Below the pieces are notes generated by a model. It searched no databases, was not told the origin of the DNA, and saw only the letters and a program-made list of their open reading frames with translations. Of a stretch of DNA of 64,000 nt, positions 29,549 through 40,387 are shown piece by piece (positions within the stretch are counted from its first letter, which is position 1; each line of letters begins with the position of its first letter). The position numbers and the translations under genes were made by a program. This stretch comes from Aurantiochytrium sp. KH105 (Eukaryota; Sar; Bigyra; Thraustochytrida; Thraustochytriidae): assembly GCA_003116975.1 (NCBI GenBank), contig BGKB01000089.1, positions 1 to 64,000 on the forward strand, in the 5' to 3' direction.

Positions 29549-30542
29549 CTCGTCTTTTCCGCGCGCGCGCCCACCGTCGAGCGAGCTAGCTCGCTTGCTT
29601 GCTTACTTTTGCTAGCTTACTCGAGCTCGCACGTTCACAGCGCTGCTCGAGTCTGCATGCAACCAGTCTCTCACACCCTGCGGCCAGGCGCCAAAAGCTC
29701 GCCTCGTGCAGACCTGCTCCGCTCGCGCCTAGCCGTTGCCCCAAAAGGGTTGTGCACCGTCGTCGTGTGTGTGCGGCCGGAGGCAGGGGCGGGCGTCCCA
29801 GCCGCGCGATCCTGCTGGCAGTGTGGCGAGGCGCCTGCAGCTGCGTTGCGTTCCAGCGGACGGCGAGGACGCGGTGCACGCGGCAGGGCTTTTACACGCT
29901 GTCACGCGGGCGGTGTCCATCTTGCCAGCTCTCAATCAAATCTCCAACCAGACGCACACGCCGCACCGTCTCTCCCGCGCCCGGCGCTGCAGCCGCGAAG
30001 GCGCAGCCGCGAAGGCGCGACGCGCGGCAGGGCAGGGCAGGGCAGGGCAGAGCGGAGCGGAGCCGGGAGGCCTCGCTGGGTCGGTGCGGAGTCGCGAGGC
30101 GGCCTCGTTCAGCCTCCAGGAGACGGTGCACACGCGCGTGTCCGTGCACGTGCGCGCGTGCACGCGCTGCAGCGGCGGCGTCTTCTGCTTCTTCCCTAGT
30201 TACTACCAGGCCTGGCTTACAGAACGAACGACGACACAACACGCGCGACGCATACATACCGCCTCTGACCAGAGACCCAGCGCAGCGTGGGCGGCGATAT
30301 ACACCGCCGCGGGAGCGAGGAGCAGCGGCGGCAGAAAGCGTTCGCGCCTTCGCGCTTTCGCGGGCGCGGCGGGCGGCGAGTACGATTGGCGCGGGTCTGG
30401 CGGCGGGCGAGTGGGTGCGCGAGAGGCCTGCGGCTGATTGAAGGGAAGCTTACGTGGCGTGCTTGCGCTGGAGGGAAGGCGGTCAGGAGTTGGCGAAGGA
30501 GAGCAGAGAGGAGAGGGCCTCGTTGCGCGGAAAGAGGCCACC
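29549..30542. promoter_or_regulatory. Divergent intergenic region, 777-aa gene / kinase gene
   Basis: 994 bp between head-to-head start codons, strongly GC-rich. It contains gagctagctcgcttgcttgc-type repeats near 29580-29620, a (GGGCA)n stretch at about 30025-30050 and many CGCG sites. The open frames here on both strands are Arg/Ala/Ser-rich and judged spurious. The kinase start at 30543 has a good context (gccaccATGc). Confidence 0.45.
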
Positions 30543-32339
30543 ATGCAGATGGACAGGCCGGTGTCAATGACGCCCGTGCTGGACTTTGGCGACAATGACT
30601 TTGATCTGGACAAGAGCAAGGTGAAACTCCTCGACGTCCTCGGTCGGGGCGCCTTTAGTACCGTGTACAAGGCCGAGTACACGGGCCTCGTCGTGGCCAT
30701 CAAGAAGCAGAAACTGGCAGACCCGGACTTGGAAAGGTACATTCGCAAAGAGCTCGCCATTCTGCGCAGATGCAACCATCCGGGACTGGTCAAGTACATT
30801 GGCGCGTGCAAAGTGGACGAGAAGACGATTTACATTGCCACAGAATACTGTCGCGGCGGAGACCTGCGGCGGCTGCTGCAGTCCAGTCGCGCGCTGGGCT
30901 GGAAGCTGCGCGCGAACATTCTGCGCGGCGTGGCTGACGCGCTCGAGTACATGCACGATCGTGGGCTGATCCACCGTGACGTCAAGACTGAGAATGTCCT
31001 CTTGGACGAGACGCTCAATCCGAAACTGTGCGATTTCGGATTTGCCCGCGACGCCGCCCCAGGCACAGATGCGCGAGGCCGCGTCATGACCATGTGTGGC
31101 ACGGACGAGTTCATGGCCCCAGAGGTAATTTTTGGCATGGCATACGACACCAAGGCGGACATCTTTGGTTTCGGAATCATCATTGCCGAGACCATTGCGC
31201 GCAAGGTGCCGGGAAAGCGCGACAAATTCCTCGTACGGAAACCCATGACGGGATTTACGGCAGACGCTGCAGAGCTCAAAATGATCGGGGACCTGTACGA
31301 TCCGCCATCCAGCTTGCTCTTGCTCTGCGAAGAGTGTCTCGCCGACGAGGCAGAGCAGCGTCCCACCGCCAAGGACTGCAACGAGTGGCTCGAAGAGCTC
31401 TGGCAGGATCTTGAGCCCGACGATGTCACGACGAGCATTACTGAGGAGGAAATGCTTCGGGAAGTACGCGACGACCTTGCGAAGCGCGATGCAGAGGCCG
31501 AGTTGCCGGATGCGACCCTCGATGAGGATGATCACTCGAGGCTTGGTTCGAGGCGCGCCACAAAGTTTTACGAAACCACGTTGAAGCGAGCCACGCTCGC
31601 TGCGTTCAACTGGATCAACAATGATGACGGGGACGATGAGGCTGAGGGCGACGATGAGGACAGCGGTGACGAGGAGGGCGAGGAGGGCACAGGCACTCTT
31701 GTCGCGGTCGAGCAATTGACGGGGGCTCATGCTACCGATGCGCATGCCATGTCGGATCGAGCCAAGGCTGCTCGAGCCGCGGCGCGCGCAGCTCCCGCCT
31801 TTGCGGCAGCCCACAAAGCTTCGCATCGACTCCCGTTGCTTCAATCCGAGCTCACGCCCCCGGTGGACGCCGTGCAGCACCAAGATGGCCAGCGGCCAGC
31901 GGCCAAGATTATGACAATGTCGGGATATGTGGTAAAGCGTGGCGGTCGCATCAAGACATGGTATCGCCGCTTCATGGTGATCACTTCGGAGGGCCTAGTC
32001 TACTTTAAGAGCAAGGAGGACTTTATCAAGAATCCAGAAGAAATGCAAGGCAGCATTTCATTTGCCGACATGGTCGTCACTCCTGGAAGGAACTCCGTGG
32101 CGGACACAGTCGGTATTATGGTTGCCAAGCGGCAGAACGCCTTTCGTGTTCTCACGCAGTCTCGCCCGCGCTACTTTCAGACGACGGACCCGCGCCTCTC
32201 TGCCAAATGGGTACGTAGCATCAATCTTGCATACATTCAATGGGAGGCGAATCGAATTCTCGAGGCGAACGATGGCGCGACCCTTCCGCGCTCTGAAAAA
32301 AGCTCCTCGAGGACCTCCAAGCCAAGACACGGACAATAA
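30543..32339 (+). CDS. TKL-like protein kinase with C-terminal PH domain
   Basis: 598 aa from the first ATG, in context gccaccATGc; the open frame extends upstream but without an ATG. The kinase domain spans about residues 27-300: glycine loop GRGAFSTV (34-41), K54 in VAIKK, E70 in RKELAIL, catalytic HRDVKTEN (D146), DFG at 164-166 and MAPEVIFG. All catalytic residues are present, so it should be active. The ADIFGFGIIIAE segment is TKL-like. An acidic linker (about 360-385, DDDEAEGDDEDSGDEEGEEG) leads to a PH domain at about 458-570 (SGYVVKRGGRIKTWYRRFMVI, ending W.RSINLAY). Expected role: Ser/Thr phosphorylation, with membrane recruitment through the PH domain. The stop codon overlaps an AATAAA. 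Confidence 0.9.
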   Translation: MQMDRPVSMTPVLDFGDNDFDLDKSKVKLLDVLGRGAFSTVYKAEYTGLVVAIKKQKLADPDLERYIRKELAILRRCNHPGLVKYIGACKVDEKTIYIATEYCRGGDLRRLLQSSRALGWKLRANILRGVADALEYMHDRGLIHRDVKTENVLLDETLNPKLCDFGFARDAAPGTDARGRVMTMCGTDEFMAPEVIFGMAYDTKADIFGFGIIIAETIARKVPGKRDKFLVRKPMTGFTADAAELKMIGDLYDPPSSLLLLCEECLADEAEQRPTAKDCNEWLEELWQDLEPDDVTTSITEEEMLREVRDDLAKRDAEAELPDATLDEDDHSRLGSRRATKFYETTLKRATLAAFNWINNDDGDDEAEGDDEDSGDEEGEEGTGTLVAVEQLTGAHATDAHAMSDRAKAARAAARAAPAFAAAHKASHRLPLLQSELTPPVDAVQHQDGQRPAAKIMTMSGYVVKRGGRIKTWYRRFMVITSEGLVYFKSKEDFIKNPEEMQGSISFADMVVTPGRNSVADTVGIMVAKRQNAFRVLTQSRPRYFQTTDPRLSAKWVRSINLAYIQWEANRILEANDGATLPRSEKSSSRTSKPRHGQ

Positions 32340-33092
32340 ATTTGAACAGTCTACACTCAGCTACTGCGGCACTCTTTTGTCTTTTTTTGGCCTTATTTTC
32401 TTGGCCGCAAGCGCAGTTGGCCTAGAATCGTCGTATCTCTAAAACACTCCATTTGTCTCCATCTTCTTTTTGGCTCAAAAAGTTCATTCGGTCATGAGCT
32501 TACTACTCTTGATGAGGGTATTGCATAAGTTCAGGTCCAGAAGGTAAAAATAACACTTTTCTTGCGGTGAAAGGACTATACGTGATCGACCGACGGCGAT
32601 CATCAGCGCGTGCCAAAAACCTTTCCGTCTCTACCCCCTCCTAGTACATGATTTGTTATGCGACAAAGATGGCGAAGTGGGTTAGAGAGGAACTTATAGA
32701 CTCCCTAATGGGAATGCAGTCAGAAAGCACCGCGAGACAACAACCAGAGCTCGAACAGGTTGATCGTGTGAATACTGCCGCTATCGCCGCTGCCGCCAAG
32801 GCGTCTGTCTGCACGTCCAGTCGTCCTTATTAGAGGCCCGCCTCGCGCCTCCTCCTTCGTACCTCGCGCCTCGCGCTTAGCTTGACGCGACCTCGGACAA
32901 GGCATCAATCGAAACGTGTGCACGCGTCCTGGAGTAAAAGACTTGTGAAGGCGCCCCCCCTTTCCTTGTGCGCAGATATCGGCTCTTCTCCTTTCTTGCA
33001 CCACGCAGCTTCTGCTCTTCGAATCAACTTAAGGCAAGGTCGAATTTGAAGAATCAGCAAAGCCAAAGCGAAGGCAATAAAAGAGTGGGATC
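32340..33092. other. Intergenic upstream of the LRR-Roc-COR-TIR gene
   Basis: 753 bp with no supported gene. Features: T-rich runs at 32375-32400, a gcctcgcgcctc-type repeat at about 32835-32880, and a C7 run at about 32954. An in-frame TAA 15 nt before the ATG at 33093 supports that ATG as the start of the next gene. Confidence 0.5.
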
Positions 33093-36000
33093 ATGGATTA
33101 TACTGTCGCAGATGCACTCAAGAAGATGGCTGAGGGCGCCTCGTTCGTGACGTACGTTGAATAGATTGAATGAGCACTTTTTACAAATTCTTTTGCACTG
33201 ACAATGCATTCATTCAAACAAAACTCTTTTTGCCACAATTTAATGTTTGGGCACTAATCATTTCGAATTTCTAACCTGTGCCTCTCGTGGCGTTCATGAT
33301 CGCACAAACACAGCCTGTTCCAAATTGATGATGATGGCGCAAAAGCACTAGCGGACGCTCTAAAAGTGAATACGACGCTGGATTCTCTGAAGTAAGTTGT
33401 TGTGAAAACGAGAGAAGGAATGTCGGAAAGAGTGCAAAGGACTGACTTGTGCATTGATAACCTCGTATTTCAACTCTGCGTCTTTTTTGGGCTTTATTGC
33501 ACAAACACAGCCTTGATATAATCGGCGATGATGGCATGAAAGCGCTTGCGGACGCTCTAAAAGTGAATAGGTCGCTGGGTGATCTGACGTAAGTCGTTGT
33601 GATAATGAGGAAGGATTGCCGGGAAGAGTGCAAAGGACTGACTTTTACGCCTTGATCATCTCGTATTTCGAATCTGTGTCTTTTTGGGCTTAAAAATTGC
33701 ACAAACACAGTCTGCTCACAATCAGCGATGATGGCATGAAAGCGCTGGCGGACGCTCTAAAAGTGAATAGGTCTCTGGGTGATCTGACGTAAGTCGTTGT
33801 GATAATGAGGAAGGATTGCCGGGAAGAGTGCAAAGGACTGACTTTTACGCCTCGATCATCTCGTCATCCCAAACTACGTCTTTTTGGCGCTTAACATTGC
33901 GAAATCACAGCCTGGACAACATCGGCGATGATGGCATGAAAGCGCTGGCGGACGCTCTAAAAGTGAATACGACGCTGGGTTCTCTGACGTGAGTTGTTGT
34001 GAGGATTTGAGAAGGAATGCCAGAAAGAGTGCAAAGGACTGACTTTTACGCCTCGATCATCTCGTATTTCTAATCTTCGTCTTTTTTGGGCTTAAAAATT
34101 GCACAAACACAGCCTGGATAAAATCGGCGATGATGGCATGAAAGCACTTGCGGACGCTCTAAAAGTGAATGAGTCGCTGGGTTATTTGACGTAAGTCGTT
34201 GTGATATTGAGGAAGGAATGCCGGAAAGAGTGCAAAGGACTGACTTGTGCATTGATAACCTCGTATTTCAAATCTGCGTCTTTTTTGGGCTTAATTGCAC
34301 AAACACAGTCTTTCTAAAGTCGGCGATGATGGCATGAAAGCGCTGGCGGACGCTCTAAAAGTGAATAGGTCGCTGGGTGATCTGACGTGAGTTGTTGTGA
34401 GGATTTGAGAAGGAATGCCAGAAAGAGTGCAAAGGACTGACTTTTACGCCTCGATCATCTCGTCATCCCAAACTACGTCTTTTTGGCGCTTAACATTGCG
34501 AAATCACAGCCTGGACAACATCGGCGATGATGGCATGAAAGCGCTGGCGGACGCTCTAAAAGTGAATAAGTCTCTGAATTCTCTGACGTGAGTTGTTGTG
34601 ATAATGAGAGAAGGAATGCCGGAAAGAGTGCAAAGGACTGACTTATACGCCTCGATCATCTCGTATTTCTAATCTTTGTCTTTTTTCGGCTTTAAAATTG
34701 CACAAACACAGCCTGGATAAAATCGGTGATGATGGCATGAAAGCGCTTGCGGACGCTCTAAAAGTGAATGAGTCGCTGGGTTATTTGACGTAAGTCGTTG
34801 TAATAACGAGAGAAGGGATGCCGGAAAGAGTGCATAGACTGACAAACACGCACGTTGCAATGTTGTTTATCAATCCACACATGATGCTGCCATCGTTGGA
34901 AAAAACGATTGCACCATGTAACCACGTTGTGACGTTTTGTTCTTGATTGCGCGAGAACAGTCTCTCAGGCGAACAGATCGGCGATGATGGCGCAAAAGCG
35001 CTGGCGAGTGCAATCGCAGAGAATGGGTCACTGAGAAGATTTAAGTAAGTTGTTGTCAGGATGAGATAAGGTTATGGGATGCGCAAAGCTTGCATAGACT
35101 GACCAGCACGTATATTGCAATGATGTACATTGATCCACACGTGGTGCTGTCATCGTTGGAAAAAACGATTACACCATGTGGCCATGCTATGACTATTTGT
35201 TTATGATTGCACGAGAATAGACTCGACGGCGGAAATATCGGCGATGATGGCGCAAAAGCGCTGGCGAGTGCAATCGCAGCAAATACGTGGCTATGGTCTC
35301 TGAGGTAAGTGATTGTAAGGTTTTTGTTAAGGTCAAGAAATGCGCAAAGAGCGCAAAGAACTGACCAGGACGCACATTGCATTGATCTTCATTTCCCCAC
35401 ACGCTGTGGTGCCATCACTCGAATGATCGCACTATGTAACCATGCTGTGATGCTTTGTTCTTGATTGCACGAGAACAGACTCTCAGGCGAACAGATCGGT
35501 GATAATGGCGCAAAAGCGCTGGCAGGCGCAATAACGTCTTTAAACGGGTTGCGGTAAGTGATTGTGAGGATTTAAAATGGGGAATGTTGCAAGGCGTGAG
35601 GAAGACTGACCAGCACTTGTAACGATCTCACACAAATCCATACATGGCGCTGCCATCGCTTTGACCAATTTCACTATGCGCCAATGATATGACTGTTCGC
35701 CTCGCCATGTCGTCCCTATTTTCACGAAAATAGTCTTTCAGGCGGAAAGATCGGAAACGATGGCATAAAGGCGCTAGCTGGCGCACTCGCAATGACCACG
35801 TCGCTGGACACGCTAGAGTAAGTCATATTTGGACGGAAGAAGTGTGCGCGCGCGGGAGGAATGGGGGGGGGGGGGAGGATGCAGGAAGACTTATTAACTC
35901 ACGCGCTGCTACAATCCCATCAAATCAATACACGGTGCCACCATCGTTTGTCTCTTTCTACCGTGTGATCGTGCTGCACCCGTTTGATTCACCGTAATTT

Positions 36001-39000
36001 TTCATAATTCGCAAATGCAGGCTACAAGGAAACAATATCGGCGACGATGGCGCGATATTGCTTGCAGACGCGCTCGCCAAGAGCACGTCGCTGCGGACGC
36101 TAGAGTAAGCTACAATCTGGTCGTGAGAAGTGCTGGCACGAAATAGAAAAGACTGACCAGCACACGTTCATTGCCACCTCAATGCTGTCGTTCGCTCTCT
36201 TCTATCACGTGATCGTGCTACGTCCCTTCATTTCTCCACACTGTCTTTAATTACCAGCCTTTCCGACAACAGAATCGGCGACGACGGCGCAGCGGCGTTG
36301 GCGCATGCACTCACACAAAGCACGACGCTGCAGGAGCTAAAGTAAGTTATAGTCTGGACATAAGAAGTCTGGGTGCGAATCGGAAGAGACTGACCAACAC
36401 ACACATTCATTGCCACACCAATGCTGTCGTTCGCTCTCTTCTATCACGTGATCGTGCTTTGCCCCTTTATTTCTCCACATTGTCGTTATTAAAATTGCTC
36501 GAGCACAGTCTTTCCGACAATATAATCGGCGACGACGGCGCAGCGGCGTTGGCGCATGCCATCGCACAAAGCACGTCGCTGCTGCAAAAATTGTAGTACG
36601 TTGCAAAAGAAGGCCGTGGACCCGGTTATGTTGTGCACTGACGCTTGTCTTGTGGTTTCGCAGCCTTCAATGGAACAAATTTGGCAATGCAGGGGCGGGA
36701 GCCCTGGCAACAGCACTTGAAAGTAACGACACGCTTGAAGAACTGAGGTACGTTATATTATGTTGAAACAAGAGGCAACGATTGGCACCTACTAACGTGA
36801 CCATCATGACATAAAACAGTCTTGACAAAGGAGAAATTTCATCGGTGATCCTGGCTCGCATCGCGGACCATGTCAAGCTCACAGAGAAAGAGCTGGACGA
36901 TATGAGCGCAATCGCTGAAAGGGGTCTAAAGGCCAACGTGAAGGTCCGATGGGGCCGCGCCAAGCTCATGATTGTGGGCAAGTCCGCTGCTGGCAAAACA
37001 TCAACAATTCGCACGCTTTTAGACCAGCCATTTAACGACGACCACGTCTCCACAATCGGAGTCGACCTCACGCTGACCCGCACACGAGACTGGAAAGAGC
37101 GGGAGACCATTAGCAATGCTGACCTTTATGAGCAGTTTGCAAAGTACAAGTACCGTCGGCAAAGCTTTTCCCAGCGTGTCTCTCGGCGCATGTCTGGAAT
37201 TGCGGCTCGAGCGTCTGCATCTCGAAAGTCTTCTTCAAAGCGCGGTCGTGCGTCGTTTGTATTTAATGTTTATGATGTTGCGATGGCTGTGAAAAATCCG
37301 CTTCGTCTTCAGATCAAGGAAGAAGCTGGCAAACCGGACGAAGAAGTCAGTTTCACGATTTGGGACTACGGAGGACAAGAAGTCTTTTACGCTTTGCACC
37401 ATCTGTTCTTGACGCAATATGGTGTTTATGTGCTGGTCTTTGACATGCGAGAAGTGCTGGGCAAAGAGCGTTTCGAGGAAGTACTCGACGGAGATAAATT
37501 CGAGAGCCTTGCGTCGCAAAAGGATGCGTTGGATACGCTGCGCTTCTGGATCGACTCCATTCGTCTGCATGCGCCAAATGTCAGCGTTGCGCTCGTGGGG
37601 ACATACCTAGATCAGGTACCTGATGATGGGGACCACAGGGCGATCAACCAGACAATTAAAAGTGAGGTGCTCAAAGGCCTTGGCGGAAGACCAGCTGTGT
37701 TACGGAATCGTTCGTCACAACTTCAATTTTTCCCCATTAACAACAAAGACCGTGAAGACACAGATGAACACGTGTCGCACCTGCGGGAGGCGCTGTCGGA
37801 GTCCGTTGCAAACAAAGACTTTGTCAAGGACAAGGTCCCATTGCGGTGGTCATATTGTTTGGACATCCTACTCTCCGAAGAAGAGGACTTTCTGCTGCTG
37901 GATGAAGTGGAGTATATTGCTGAAGATTGGTGCAACCTTCCCAAGGAAGATGTGCACAAGATGCTGAAATACATGCATGAGCTTGGGGTGCTTATTCACC
38001 TGACAACGGGAGAGAACGATGTTCTACGTCAGCTTGTCGTAATTCGACCGCAGTGGTTGCTGGAGAACCTCTCGCGCGTCATTTGCGATCCCGATATGGA
38101 TCACATGCAGAGGCACAAGGACAACCTGCTGTATCGCCGTGGCGATGAGGATGGCGGCGAGTTTCCGAGCGAGCTCGAGGATGCGCTCGAGGAGTGGTCA
38201 GACCGTGGCGTCGCCAGTCGTGCGCTTCTGGAGAAACTATGGCAAGACCAACCGGTCGACTATTTCACGGAGCTGATGGAGTCGATGTTGCTGGCGTGTC
38301 CGAGTCCATGGATCGGCGACAAGGATGAAGAGGGCGACAAGGATGAAGAAGGCGCTCTTCTTATACCGAGCCTTTTGAAGCCTGTCGCCGAGGATACAAA
38401 GAAGAAGGCCCTCGCTGATTTGGGTCGCACTTTTGCCCTCGCTTACATTGAGTTCCGCATCCTCCCCAAGGGCGTTTTCCAACGTTTACTCGCTAGCCTC
38501 GTACAACTTCTTCCCAACCGCGTGAGTGTGGGCGATCACGGCGTGTACGCAGACTTTGCAAGCATCGTATTCGACAATGTTGATGTTGTCATGGAAACGA
38601 GCGGCAACCGCTTGATGCTCTACTTTGAGTTGCCCGCGAATCGGAGCCTCAGCAGTCATGTGGTGATTCTCAAGAACAGTCTTGACTCCATTGATTCCTT
38701 CTTCATGAAGAAAGGTCTCGACCCAAAGCTCTATGTCAGTTCTGATGGCTCTGATCACAGAGCTGCATGCGCCTCGGCGAAGGGTCTTGCAGACGCCACA
38801 AATGGCGAGGTATCTTTAGTGAAGAGGGGCAAGCGACTTCCTCTGACGTCTTTTGGGCCGTTTGTGGAGAGTCGAAGTGCGACACGGCATCCTCGTCTGT
38901 CTATCGCAAGCACTGACAAGCCTTATCACGTCTTTCTTTCGCATTCTTGGGGCGAGGGGAGAGAGACGCACGAAAAGGTCAAGGCGGTGGCTCGTGAGCT

Positions 39001-39472
39001 TGAGACGCGTGGAATTCGCTACTGGCTTGACGAGATTGAGGTCGGCCAGGAGGTACTTGATTCCATGGCTAATGGGATCGACAGGTCGAAGGCTGTCGTG
39101 GTTTTCGTAACCCGCGAGTACATGAACAAAGTGAATCGAGGCAGGTCCGAGCTCGACAATTGCCGAGACGAGTTCTGCTACGCTTTTCGGCGTTTGAAAC
39201 CCGCGAACATGATTCCTTGCATCCTGGACCAAGAGATGAGCGACATGAGCACGTGGGAAGGACGTTTTGGCATATCGTGGAGCGGCAATCCGTTATATGT
39301 GTCCATGTGGAAGGGAGGCGAACCGGACGAGATTGATGCTCTTGAGGCAGCAATCAAGGACGTTCTTGGATTGCAAAACGAAGCGGCTGTGAGGCCCGAA
39401 GACGTCCCTGCGTCGACAACACCCGCAGTGCATCGTCGAGGGACCCTTTCGAGATTGTTTGGGAAGAAGTAA
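33093..39472 (+). CDS. LRR-Roc-COR-TIR protein, 18 exons
   Basis: Spliced model, 4,002 nt, 1,333 aa. Exons: 33093-33151, 33314-33391, 33511-33588, 33711-33788, 33911-33988, 34113-34190, 34309-34386, 34510-34587, 34712-34789, 34961-35044, 35221-35304, 35479-35553, 35734-35817, 36021-36104, 36258-36341, 36509-36595, 36664-36747, 36820-39472. All 17 introns (68-203 bp) are GT-AG and phase 2. Exons 2-17 each encode one ribonuclease-inhibitor-type LRR (core IGDDG.KALA.AL). Exon 18 encodes Roc (P-loop GKSAAGKTS at 503-511, DYGGQE at 632-637, VGTYLD), COR (RPQWLLENLSRVI) and a TIR domain from about 1150 (YHVFLSHSWG, LDEIEVGQ, NCRDEF with E1234 at the usual NADase Glu position). No kinase domain or membrane segment is present. 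Likely a cytosolic GTP-regulated signalling or recognition protein; ligand and output are unknown. Confidence 0.88.
33314..36747 (+). repeat. Array of 16 one-LRR exons with copied introns
   Basis: Exons 2-9 are all 78 bp (26 residues); exons 10-17 are 84, 84, 75, 84, 84, 84, 87 and 84 bp. The 26-residue units share a nearly invariant middle (GDDGMKALADALKVN) with changes at both ends, e.g. VNTTLGS, VNRSLGD, VNESLGY, VNKSLNS. The 28-residue units have the canonical LxxLxLxxNxIG form, which the 26-mers shorten by two residues. Introns within each block are also similar: introns 2-8 share ttttttgggctt and cacaaacacag; introns 9-11 share a cgttggaaaaaacgatt-type segment; introns 14-15 share tcgctctcttctatcacgtg. 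Confidence 0.9.
33711..34789 (+). repeat. 599-bp tandem duplication of three LRR exons
   Basis: Exon starts 33711, 33911 and 34113 recur at 34309, 34510 and 34712, offsets of 598, 599 and 599 bp. Exons 5 and 8 are preceded by the same distinctive intron end (cgcttaacattgcgaaatcacag type), and exons 6 and 9 share cctggataaaatcgg. The copies are mosaic: intron 6 and exon 7 match intron 2 and exon 3 better than intron 3 and exon 4, indicating later recombination or conversion. Confidence 0.8.
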
Positions 39473-39850: not shown

Positions 39851-40387
39851 TCAGAGAATGACGCAGACCTCACCACCAGCGCCATGGAGCTCGCCCGGGG
39901 GCGTCTCGCAGGGAATAATTTGACCGATGCAGAGACGCTCCCACACGGAGCGTCCGTGGCGAGAATGGAAATTCAAGTCCTCCTCACAGTCCTGGGCGCC
40001 TCCAGCCCTTCGCACAAGCGAGCGCTGGCCGCCAGGATGGTCCTCAATGTAGTTTGTGACGTCGAAGACGCGGCCCTTGGCGATGATCCAGCAGTCCTCC
40101 TTGGAGTCGTGGATGCGCACCTCGCACATGGTCACGAAGAGGTCCGGGGCTACGCCGCGGCTCCCCGACACGCGTCGCGTGCCGTGCTGCTGGCACAGCT
40201 CGCAGGCGGCGCGGTCCCCTGGCGTCTCCGGCGCAGCCGGCTGGGGCGTAGTGCGCGCGACGACGGCCGCCTCGCGCTCCGCGACGATCTTGTACTCGGT
40301 GTCCTGCGGGTTGCCCACGGACTCGAAGCGCCCGCGCATGCCCAGCGAGGACCCGTGGCGCGCGGTCCCGGACAGCGCGTGCACCAT
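39851..40387 (-). CDS. Cytochrome b5-domain protein with C-terminal CaaX motif
   Basis: 178 aa. Residues about 85-160 form a cytochrome b5-like heme-binding domain: EDCWIIAKGRVFDVTNYI, the axial-ligand motif DHPGG (H117), and the second-ligand region FHSRHGRSVWERLCIGQ (H141 the likely ligand). The N-terminal 80 residues are polar, with a CELCQQHG segment. Unlike tail-anchored microsomal b5 there is no C-terminal membrane helix. The protein instead ends CVIL, a CaaX box whose final Leu predicts geranylgeranylation, so membrane attachment by a lipid is likely but inferred. Expected role: electron donor to membrane oxidoreductases such as desaturases or hydroxylases. Confidence 0.8.
   Translation of the reverse strand: MVHALSGTARHGSSLGMRGRFESVGNPQDTEYKIVAEREAAVVARTTPQPAAPETPGDRAACELCQQHGTRRVSGSRGVAPDLFVTMCEVRIHDSKEDCWIIAKGRVFDVTNYIEDHPGGQRSLVRRAGGAQDCEEDLNFHSRHGRSVWERLCIGQIIPCETPPGELHGAGGEVCVIL

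Follow-up and report, generated by a model that had tools for sequence, protein, structure and literature searches.

The window analysed here, a stretch of 64,000 nucleotides from the marine, unicellular thraustochytrid Aurantiochytrium sp. KH105 (contig BGKB01000089.1, positions 1 to 64,000), carries on its forward strand an 18-exon gene (33093-39472) predicted to encode a protein with leucine-rich repeats (LRRs) followed by Roc, COR and TIR domains, TIR being a domain type that serves in immune signalling. When the 17 GT-AG introns of 68-203 nt are removed, the spliced coding sequence comprises 4,002 nt and encodes 1,333 amino acids (aa) with a single terminal stop, and the cumulative phase is 2 at 17 of 17 junctions. 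The long open reading frame (ORF) is confined to exon 18, where it extends over 875 aa counted from GTG. The initial annotation, made from the letters alone, had described a gene with a long open frame in its last exon only, 17 introns, 16 LRRs in a 1,333-aa product, a length that is an exact multiple of three, phase 2 kept at every junction and an in-frame stop ahead of the ATG, and splicing reproduces each of these features.

Gene structure and domain content

Each of the 16 LRR exons (exons 2-17) encodes one repeat and is a phase 2 exon, with lengths of 78 bp (eight exons), 84 bp (six exons), 75 bp and 87 bp (one exon each). The consensus of these repeats is about L..N.IGDDGAKALADAL..N.SL..L, which we take to be the ribonuclease-inhibitor-like LRR type. 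In all 24 paralog loci examined, the 1.5 kb preceding the Roc-COR-TIR exon contains one or more recognised LRR exons of this type, and in 16 of the 24 the array ends with an 87-bp exon followed by an 84-bp exon, the exon finder missing some exons. An artefactual splice model could be ruled out because the paralogs and the copy on the other haplotype have the same kind of exons, the latter with an intact frame and kept splice sites.

All four domain families proposed in the initial annotation exceed their Pfam cut-offs in the 1,333-aa protein, namely LRR_6 (E 1.5e-37), Roc (E 2.3e-17; 63.8 bits against a cut-off of 27), COR-A (E 1.4e-9; 38.5 bits against 35.3) and TIR_2 (E 1.2e-15, residues 1154-1282; 58.5 bits against 28). 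In fold comparisons the Roc-COR part of the AlphaFold model of exon 18 matches LRRK2 and Roco structures as far as residue 675, while exon-18 residues 689-844 match the TIR structures of AbTir, RPS4, RPP1 and the SPARTA TIR, so that a TIR fold is recovered after COR, where it had been placed beforehand. The Roc P-loop and the DxGGQ-type G3 motif are conserved across the aligned sequences. On the basis of the predicted Roc domain with these motifs and of COR directly after it, the protein is assigned to the ROCO family, and its C-terminal domain is predicted to have a TIR fold. Between the P-loop and DYGGQ the Roc domain contains a poorly modelled insertion (37052-37249) rich in serine and basic residues, of which residues 69-76 and 114-134 have a pLDDT below 50 in the AlphaFold model. 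Within the TIR domain, E775 of the exon-18 protein lies in helix 771-782 of the model and is a candidate for the catalytic glutamate of helix alpha-C; phmmer alignments to solved TIRs do not settle the assignment, and the one to PdTIR sets the neighbouring RSEL, and not the conserved E775, opposite the PdTIR KEL. The positions of these features are collected in Table 1.

Table 1. Exons, domains and neighbouring kinase ORF in the window (positions counted from its first letter).
Feature	Position	Strand	Basis or remark
Exon 1: start codon and N-terminal cap, 59 nt	33093-33151	+	Splicing; in-frame TAA at 33078
Exons 2-9: eight 78-bp LRR exons, introns 118-124 nt	33314-34789	+	Most similar part of the array
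Exons 2-5	33314-33391, 33511-33588, 33711-33788, 33911-33988	+	
Exons 6-9	34113-34190, 34309-34386, 34510-34587, 34712-34789	+	
Exons 10-17: eight LRR exons, 75-87 bp	34961-36747	+	
Exons 10-13	34961-35044, 35221-35304, 35479-35553, 35734-35817	+	
Exons 14-17	36021-36104, 36258-36341, 36509-36595, 36664-36747	+	
Exon 18: Roc-COR-TIR, 2,653 nt	36820-39472	+	TAA at end
Roc GTPase, exon-18 residues about 34-324; P-loop GKSAAGKT and DYGGQ	36947-37819	+	Pfam, AlphaFold model, fold comparison; approximate limits
COR region, exon-18 residues about 325-675; COR-A match 37871-38095	37820-38872	+	Pfam, model, fold; approximate limits
TIR domain, exon-18 residues 689-844; TIR_2 match 38930-39316	38912-39379	+	Pfam, fold comparison
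Candidate catalytic glutamate codon, E775 of exon-18 protein (E1234 of whole)	39170-39172	+	Alignment
Kinase-PH ORF	30438-32339	+	Read as separate gene; fused to ROCO gene in deposited Hondaea model

The second copy and the variation of the repeat array

The KH105 assembly (76 Mb, 367 contigs) appears to contain two haplotypes, and a second contig (C98) is collinear with the window contig (C89). Two 2-kb probes, window:10000-12000 and window:56000-58000, have exactly two places each, on C89 and C98, at 90% and 94% identity, and C98 is therefore most likely the other haplotype, as judged from sequence comparison. That the two contigs are instead homeologs, in a genome of hybrid or duplicated origin, is improbable; in that case their arrays would differ between species or paralogs. 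Identities of 90-94% at the probes and of some 92-94% in the surroundings of the gene represent a high divergence within one species; against this, the probes found just the two copies, and many ROCO-TIR loci likewise fall into pairs of best matches (89-96%), the picture that an unphased diploid would give.

The gene on C98 is intact, encoding 1,282 aa with 14 LRR exons, an in-frame start and kept splice sites, and the two copies are 94% identical in Roc-COR-TIR and 97% in the TIR domain. At the ends of the array the exons can be paired: exon 2 pairs with exon 2 of the other haplotype (8 differences in 78 positions), and its exons 11-15 pair with window exons 12, 13, 14, 16 and 17 (11, 5, 6, 7 and 7 differences), window exon 15 being without a partner. 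The central exons, unlike those of both ends, show no one-to-one pairing. The 78-bp exons 3-7 of the other haplotype have their best window matches at 12, 8, 10, 12 and 6 differences, four of the five being tied among two or three window exons, and its 84-bp exons 8-10 at 19, 18 and 18 differences. Within the window, the nearest neighbours among exons 3-9 are 2-8 differences apart, with exons 6 and 9 at 2. Since the central exons fail to pair, the arrays may have been turned over by internal recombination, with which the sequences are consistent.

Two results weigh against a sweeping version of this reading. The range of 6-12 differences for the central 78-bp matches overlaps the range of 5-11 for the paired end exons. 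Furthermore, when the 1.5 kb before exon 18 was compared in ten other pairs of paralog loci (nine of them mutual best matches, L032/L034 not, and allelism being assumed for none), eight pairs were collinear over this last part of the array, with 2-60 gapped columns. The two others are L043/L044 (72 gapped columns, four against five recognised exons) and L032/L034 (1,740), the value for the window pair being 490; the exon finder used here misses exons of some lengths, and the exon counts of the window pair come from a separate comparison. A longer comparison of C5 and C21 gave seven and seven exons with 244 gapped columns, and the pairs L023/L029 and L031/L033 have equal exon counts, yet several of their exon peptides differ. 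Rapid array turnover is thus a property of the window locus and, given the eight collinear control pairs, not the rule in the ROCO-TIR family.

The location of amino acid replacements was determined in 14 78-bp exons from both haplotypes (26 positions), in which five concave-strand positions, the x of LxxLxLxx with the split codon included, were set from the LRR consensus, the peptides having been seen beforehand. At these five positions the proportions of nonsynonymous (pN) and synonymous (pS) differences are 0.433 and 0.396 (ratio 1.15), as compared to 0.085 and 0.172 (ratio 0.46) at the other 21, and the observed mean pN is reached by 11 of the 65,780 possible five-column sets, the concave set included. 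The ratios are 1.03 at concave positions and 0.29 elsewhere among the window exons alone, and 1.30 and 0.49 between the haplotypes. The pattern speaks for diversification of the predicted ligand face or for a relaxation of constraint there. The case is weakened, however, by the other haplotype alone, where the contrast in ratio is nearly gone (0.91 against 0.83; 15 exon pairs), the concave pN still being about four times higher, and by columns 8 and 19, which lie outside the concave set and vary similarly (pN 0.38 and 0.48). The concave dN/dS is no higher than about 1, and the replacements do not prove positive selection.

A ROCO-TIR family in a thraustochytrid

Matches to COR-A above the cut-off occur at 116 loci in the two-haplotype assembly, 8 of the 124 candidate matches falling below it, and at least 86 of the 116 are followed on the same strand, no more than 2.5 kb downstream, by a TIR_2 match. 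This is a lower bound because the TIR search, all 150 matches of which were used, scored 150 of 258 candidates; 30 of the 116 loci have no TIR match in range among these 150. The count supersedes an earlier one of 61 same-frame pairs, drawn from 83 of 150 Roc and 97 of 150 TIR matches. Given so large a ROCO-TIR family in the same genome, the possibility that the window gene is an isolated oddity could be ruled out.

Many dispersed ROCO-TIR open frames of about 1,140-1,370 aa are present in the assembly, among them a 1,275-aa frame on C84 (locus L054) in which Roc, COR-A and TIR_2 matches stand together and WD40 repeats are recognised by reading. The Hondaea proteins P0044-P0046 likewise combine WD40, Roc, COR-A and TIR_2 in their precomputed domains. 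A further ORF on C17 (loci L055 and L056) has a TIR-NTPase-WD40 arrangement, its NACHT-like NTPase and WD40 repeats being judged by eye. Its TIR is 35% identical to that of the window gene over 117 columns, and the ORF may represent a similar output module joined to another switch in the same genome. Some of the close paralogs of exon 18 on C101, C342, C303 and C72 contain an in-frame stop, which suggests either that genes arise and are lost in the family or that the assembly is in error there.

In a profile search of a protein database, 36 of 62 hits contain Roc, COR-A and TIR_2, while LRR_6 accompanies all three in four, all from Hondaea. Two proteins among the 41 hits of another search, P0037 and P0038, combine LRR, Roc, COR-A and TIR_2 among their precomputed domains, at 21-22% identity (E 3.1e-12 and 1.4e-9). 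In both searches every hit that has a TIR and an organism name is from Hondaea, and the named hits lacking a TIR include Acropora, Chrysophaeum, a bacterial metagenome-assembled genome (MAG) and MMETSP transcripts. Deposited Hondaea members are labelled as kinases, Rab or NOD proteins (LRRK2, NOD2 and RasGEF kinase among the labels), and the family is therefore easily overlooked. An alignment-pattern scan of genome contigs for prokaryotic relatives gave a single 20-residue match, in a Flavobacteriales MAG, and a pattern scan of viral contigs with P0010 gave none, both being weak evidence of absence.

The deposited Hondaea fermentalgiana (Thraustochytriidae) model P0001 (1,468 aa) speaks against the gene limits adopted here, in that it joins the ROCO region to the kinase-PH ORF that lies upstream in the window. 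Its residues 1-555 are 99% identical to this ORF and residues 561-1460 match the ROCO gene (88%), the exon-18 protein being 90% identical to the remainder of the model. These identities place the window in Hondaea or in a strain very close to it. Were the transcript to include the upstream exon in the same way, a kinase-PH-LRR-Roc-COR-TIR protein would result; at the joint a TGG codon is followed by GT, and the kinase occupies the same place beside the gene of the other haplotype (99%). However, the kinase ORF is closed by a stop at 32339, the ROCO gene begins with a separate ATG that an in-frame stop precedes, and the joint, at about residue 591, falls inside the PH match (492-596), near its end. 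By reading, P0001 retains just fragments of about three LRR exons out of 16 and an incomplete exon 18, and the kinase was seen in none of three paralog loci with 3.3-3.4 kb of extra upstream sequence. P0001 is read as an annotation fusion of two genes, and a joint transcript is considered very improbable. Just downstream of the ROCO gene, a minus-strand ORF (39851-40387) with an HPGGQ motif has what we take to be a cytochrome b5-type heme-binding appearance.

Proposed function and comparison with known systems

The analysis shows how the gene is built, which domains and predicted fold it encodes, that active-site candidates are conserved, that the arrays of the two contigs differ and that replacements gather on the predicted concave face. 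Beyond this we infer that the gene is expressed as a cytosolic LRR-Roc-COR-TIR receptor whose TIR probably cleaves NAD, that its sensor exons turn over fast in the germline at this locus and that it likely acts in defence, a reading that we hold to be fairly probable. The horseshoe of 16 one-exon repeats would bind a ligand on its concave face, and binding would alter the GTP state and the oligomer or dimer state of Roc-COR. Gathered by this change, the TIR domains may cleave NAD+ or signal through their assembly, and the most likely role is to protect the cell from viruses, bacteria or other intracellular invaders. Viruses of thraustochytrids have been described (PMC4512727). Because every LRR exon is symmetric, phase 2 holding at either border, repeats could be added, deleted or fused by unequal recombination within the array with the frame kept, and sensor specificity could therefore turn over quickly while switch and output stay constant. 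The catalytic part of the proposal is tempered by its dependence on a single candidate glutamate, E775, which is absent in two of the 36 aligned sequences.

A ROCO protein of non-defence signalling, concerned for example with stress, lipids or the cell cycle, in which the TIR would serve as a scaffold and repeat turnover would be neutral gene conversion, is a rather unlikely alternative. It would accommodate the collinearity of most of the other locus pairs, the concave dN/dS near 1 and the response of many brown algal ROCO genes to other stresses (PMC11378527). It accounts less well for replacements that fall mainly on the predicted ligand face (as extreme in just 11 column sets), for the joining of a large family to TIR and for the retention of E775 in 34 of 36 sequences.

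More tentatively, the locus may belong to a germline, allele-diversified repertoire that comprises tens of intracellular receptors and has one TIR output wired to a ROCO or NACHT-like switch and to an LRR or WD40 sensor, with frame-safe recombination of LRR exons and different arrays on the chromosome copies. This somewhat doubtful but possible extension would, if true, amount to an allele-diversified immune repertoire in an organism that is neither plant nor animal, and alternative splicing of the symmetric exons might widen it. The NLRs of plants and animals are the best-known intracellular LRR receptors that have an NTPase switch, and the large thraustochytrid ROCO-TIR family would apply the same logic to a Ras-like switch. 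The locus renders exon-level recombination testable as a source of receptor alleles in a protist.

The resemblance to NLRs noted in the initial annotation is a reasonable analogy, the protein at most working like an NLR. Membership is not borne out, as Pfam reported neither NB-ARC nor NACHT at any E value up to 0.1, AAA_22 and AAA_24 being weak and below cut-off. An LRR sensor, an NTPase switch and a TIR output are shared with the plant TIR-NB-ARC-LRR (TNL) receptors, and the TIR resembles the RPS4/RPP1 fold, but here the switch is a Ras-like Roc-COR rather than a STAND NTPase and the order is reversed, with the TIR last. LRRK2 and bacterial Roco proteins share the LRR-Roc-COR order and the Roc-COR fold, with a kinase or no TIR after COR.

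The closest parallel in gene structure is provided by the brown algal LRR-ROCOs, for example of Ectocarpus and Saccharina (Teng et al. 2024, PMC11378527, citing Zambounis et al. 2012), in which ROC-COR follows an array of one-LRR, phase-2 exons with exon shuffling and concave-face selection. Their exons are of 72 bp and encode 23-residue LxxLxxLxxLxLxxNxL repeats, in contrast to the 75-87 bp and ribonuclease-inhibitor-like repeats observed here. LRR-ROC-COR is given there as their sole structure, with no further C-terminal domain reported for groups 1-2, whereas the window gene ends in a TIR, and they belong to a different stramenopile lineage. Because of its exon lengths and C-terminal TIR, the window gene appears to be a parallel or sister type and not a member of the brown algal groups. 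The same source attributes four ROCOs at most to other SAR (stramenopile, alveolate and rhizarian) species and a TPR-ROCO-TIR to the red alga Chondrus crispus, which shares the ROCO with TIR, its sensor being TPR rather than LRR. Two LRR-ROC-COR-TIR proteins, called TLRs, are reported from Aplysia (PMC9334734); they hold the same four domains in one protein but are animal, carry an extra Mbt or EF-hand domain and number two genes rather than tens.

Among deposited sequences, P0037 and P0038 have the same four domains at low identity only, and Hondaea P0001-P0008 and others represent the same gene or paralogs, P0001 lacking most of the LRR exons found here. No description of a thraustochytrid ROCO family was found among the titles listed in searches of open-licence papers. 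The LRR-Roc-COR-TIR architecture has precedents in Aplysia and P0037/P0038, as do ROCO-TIR in Chondrus and exon-per-LRR arrays in brown algae, and the parts are therefore known. What looks new, none of it having been found in these searches, is the joining of these parts in one gene, the large size that the family reaches in a thraustochytrid, and the difference in arrays between haplotypes.
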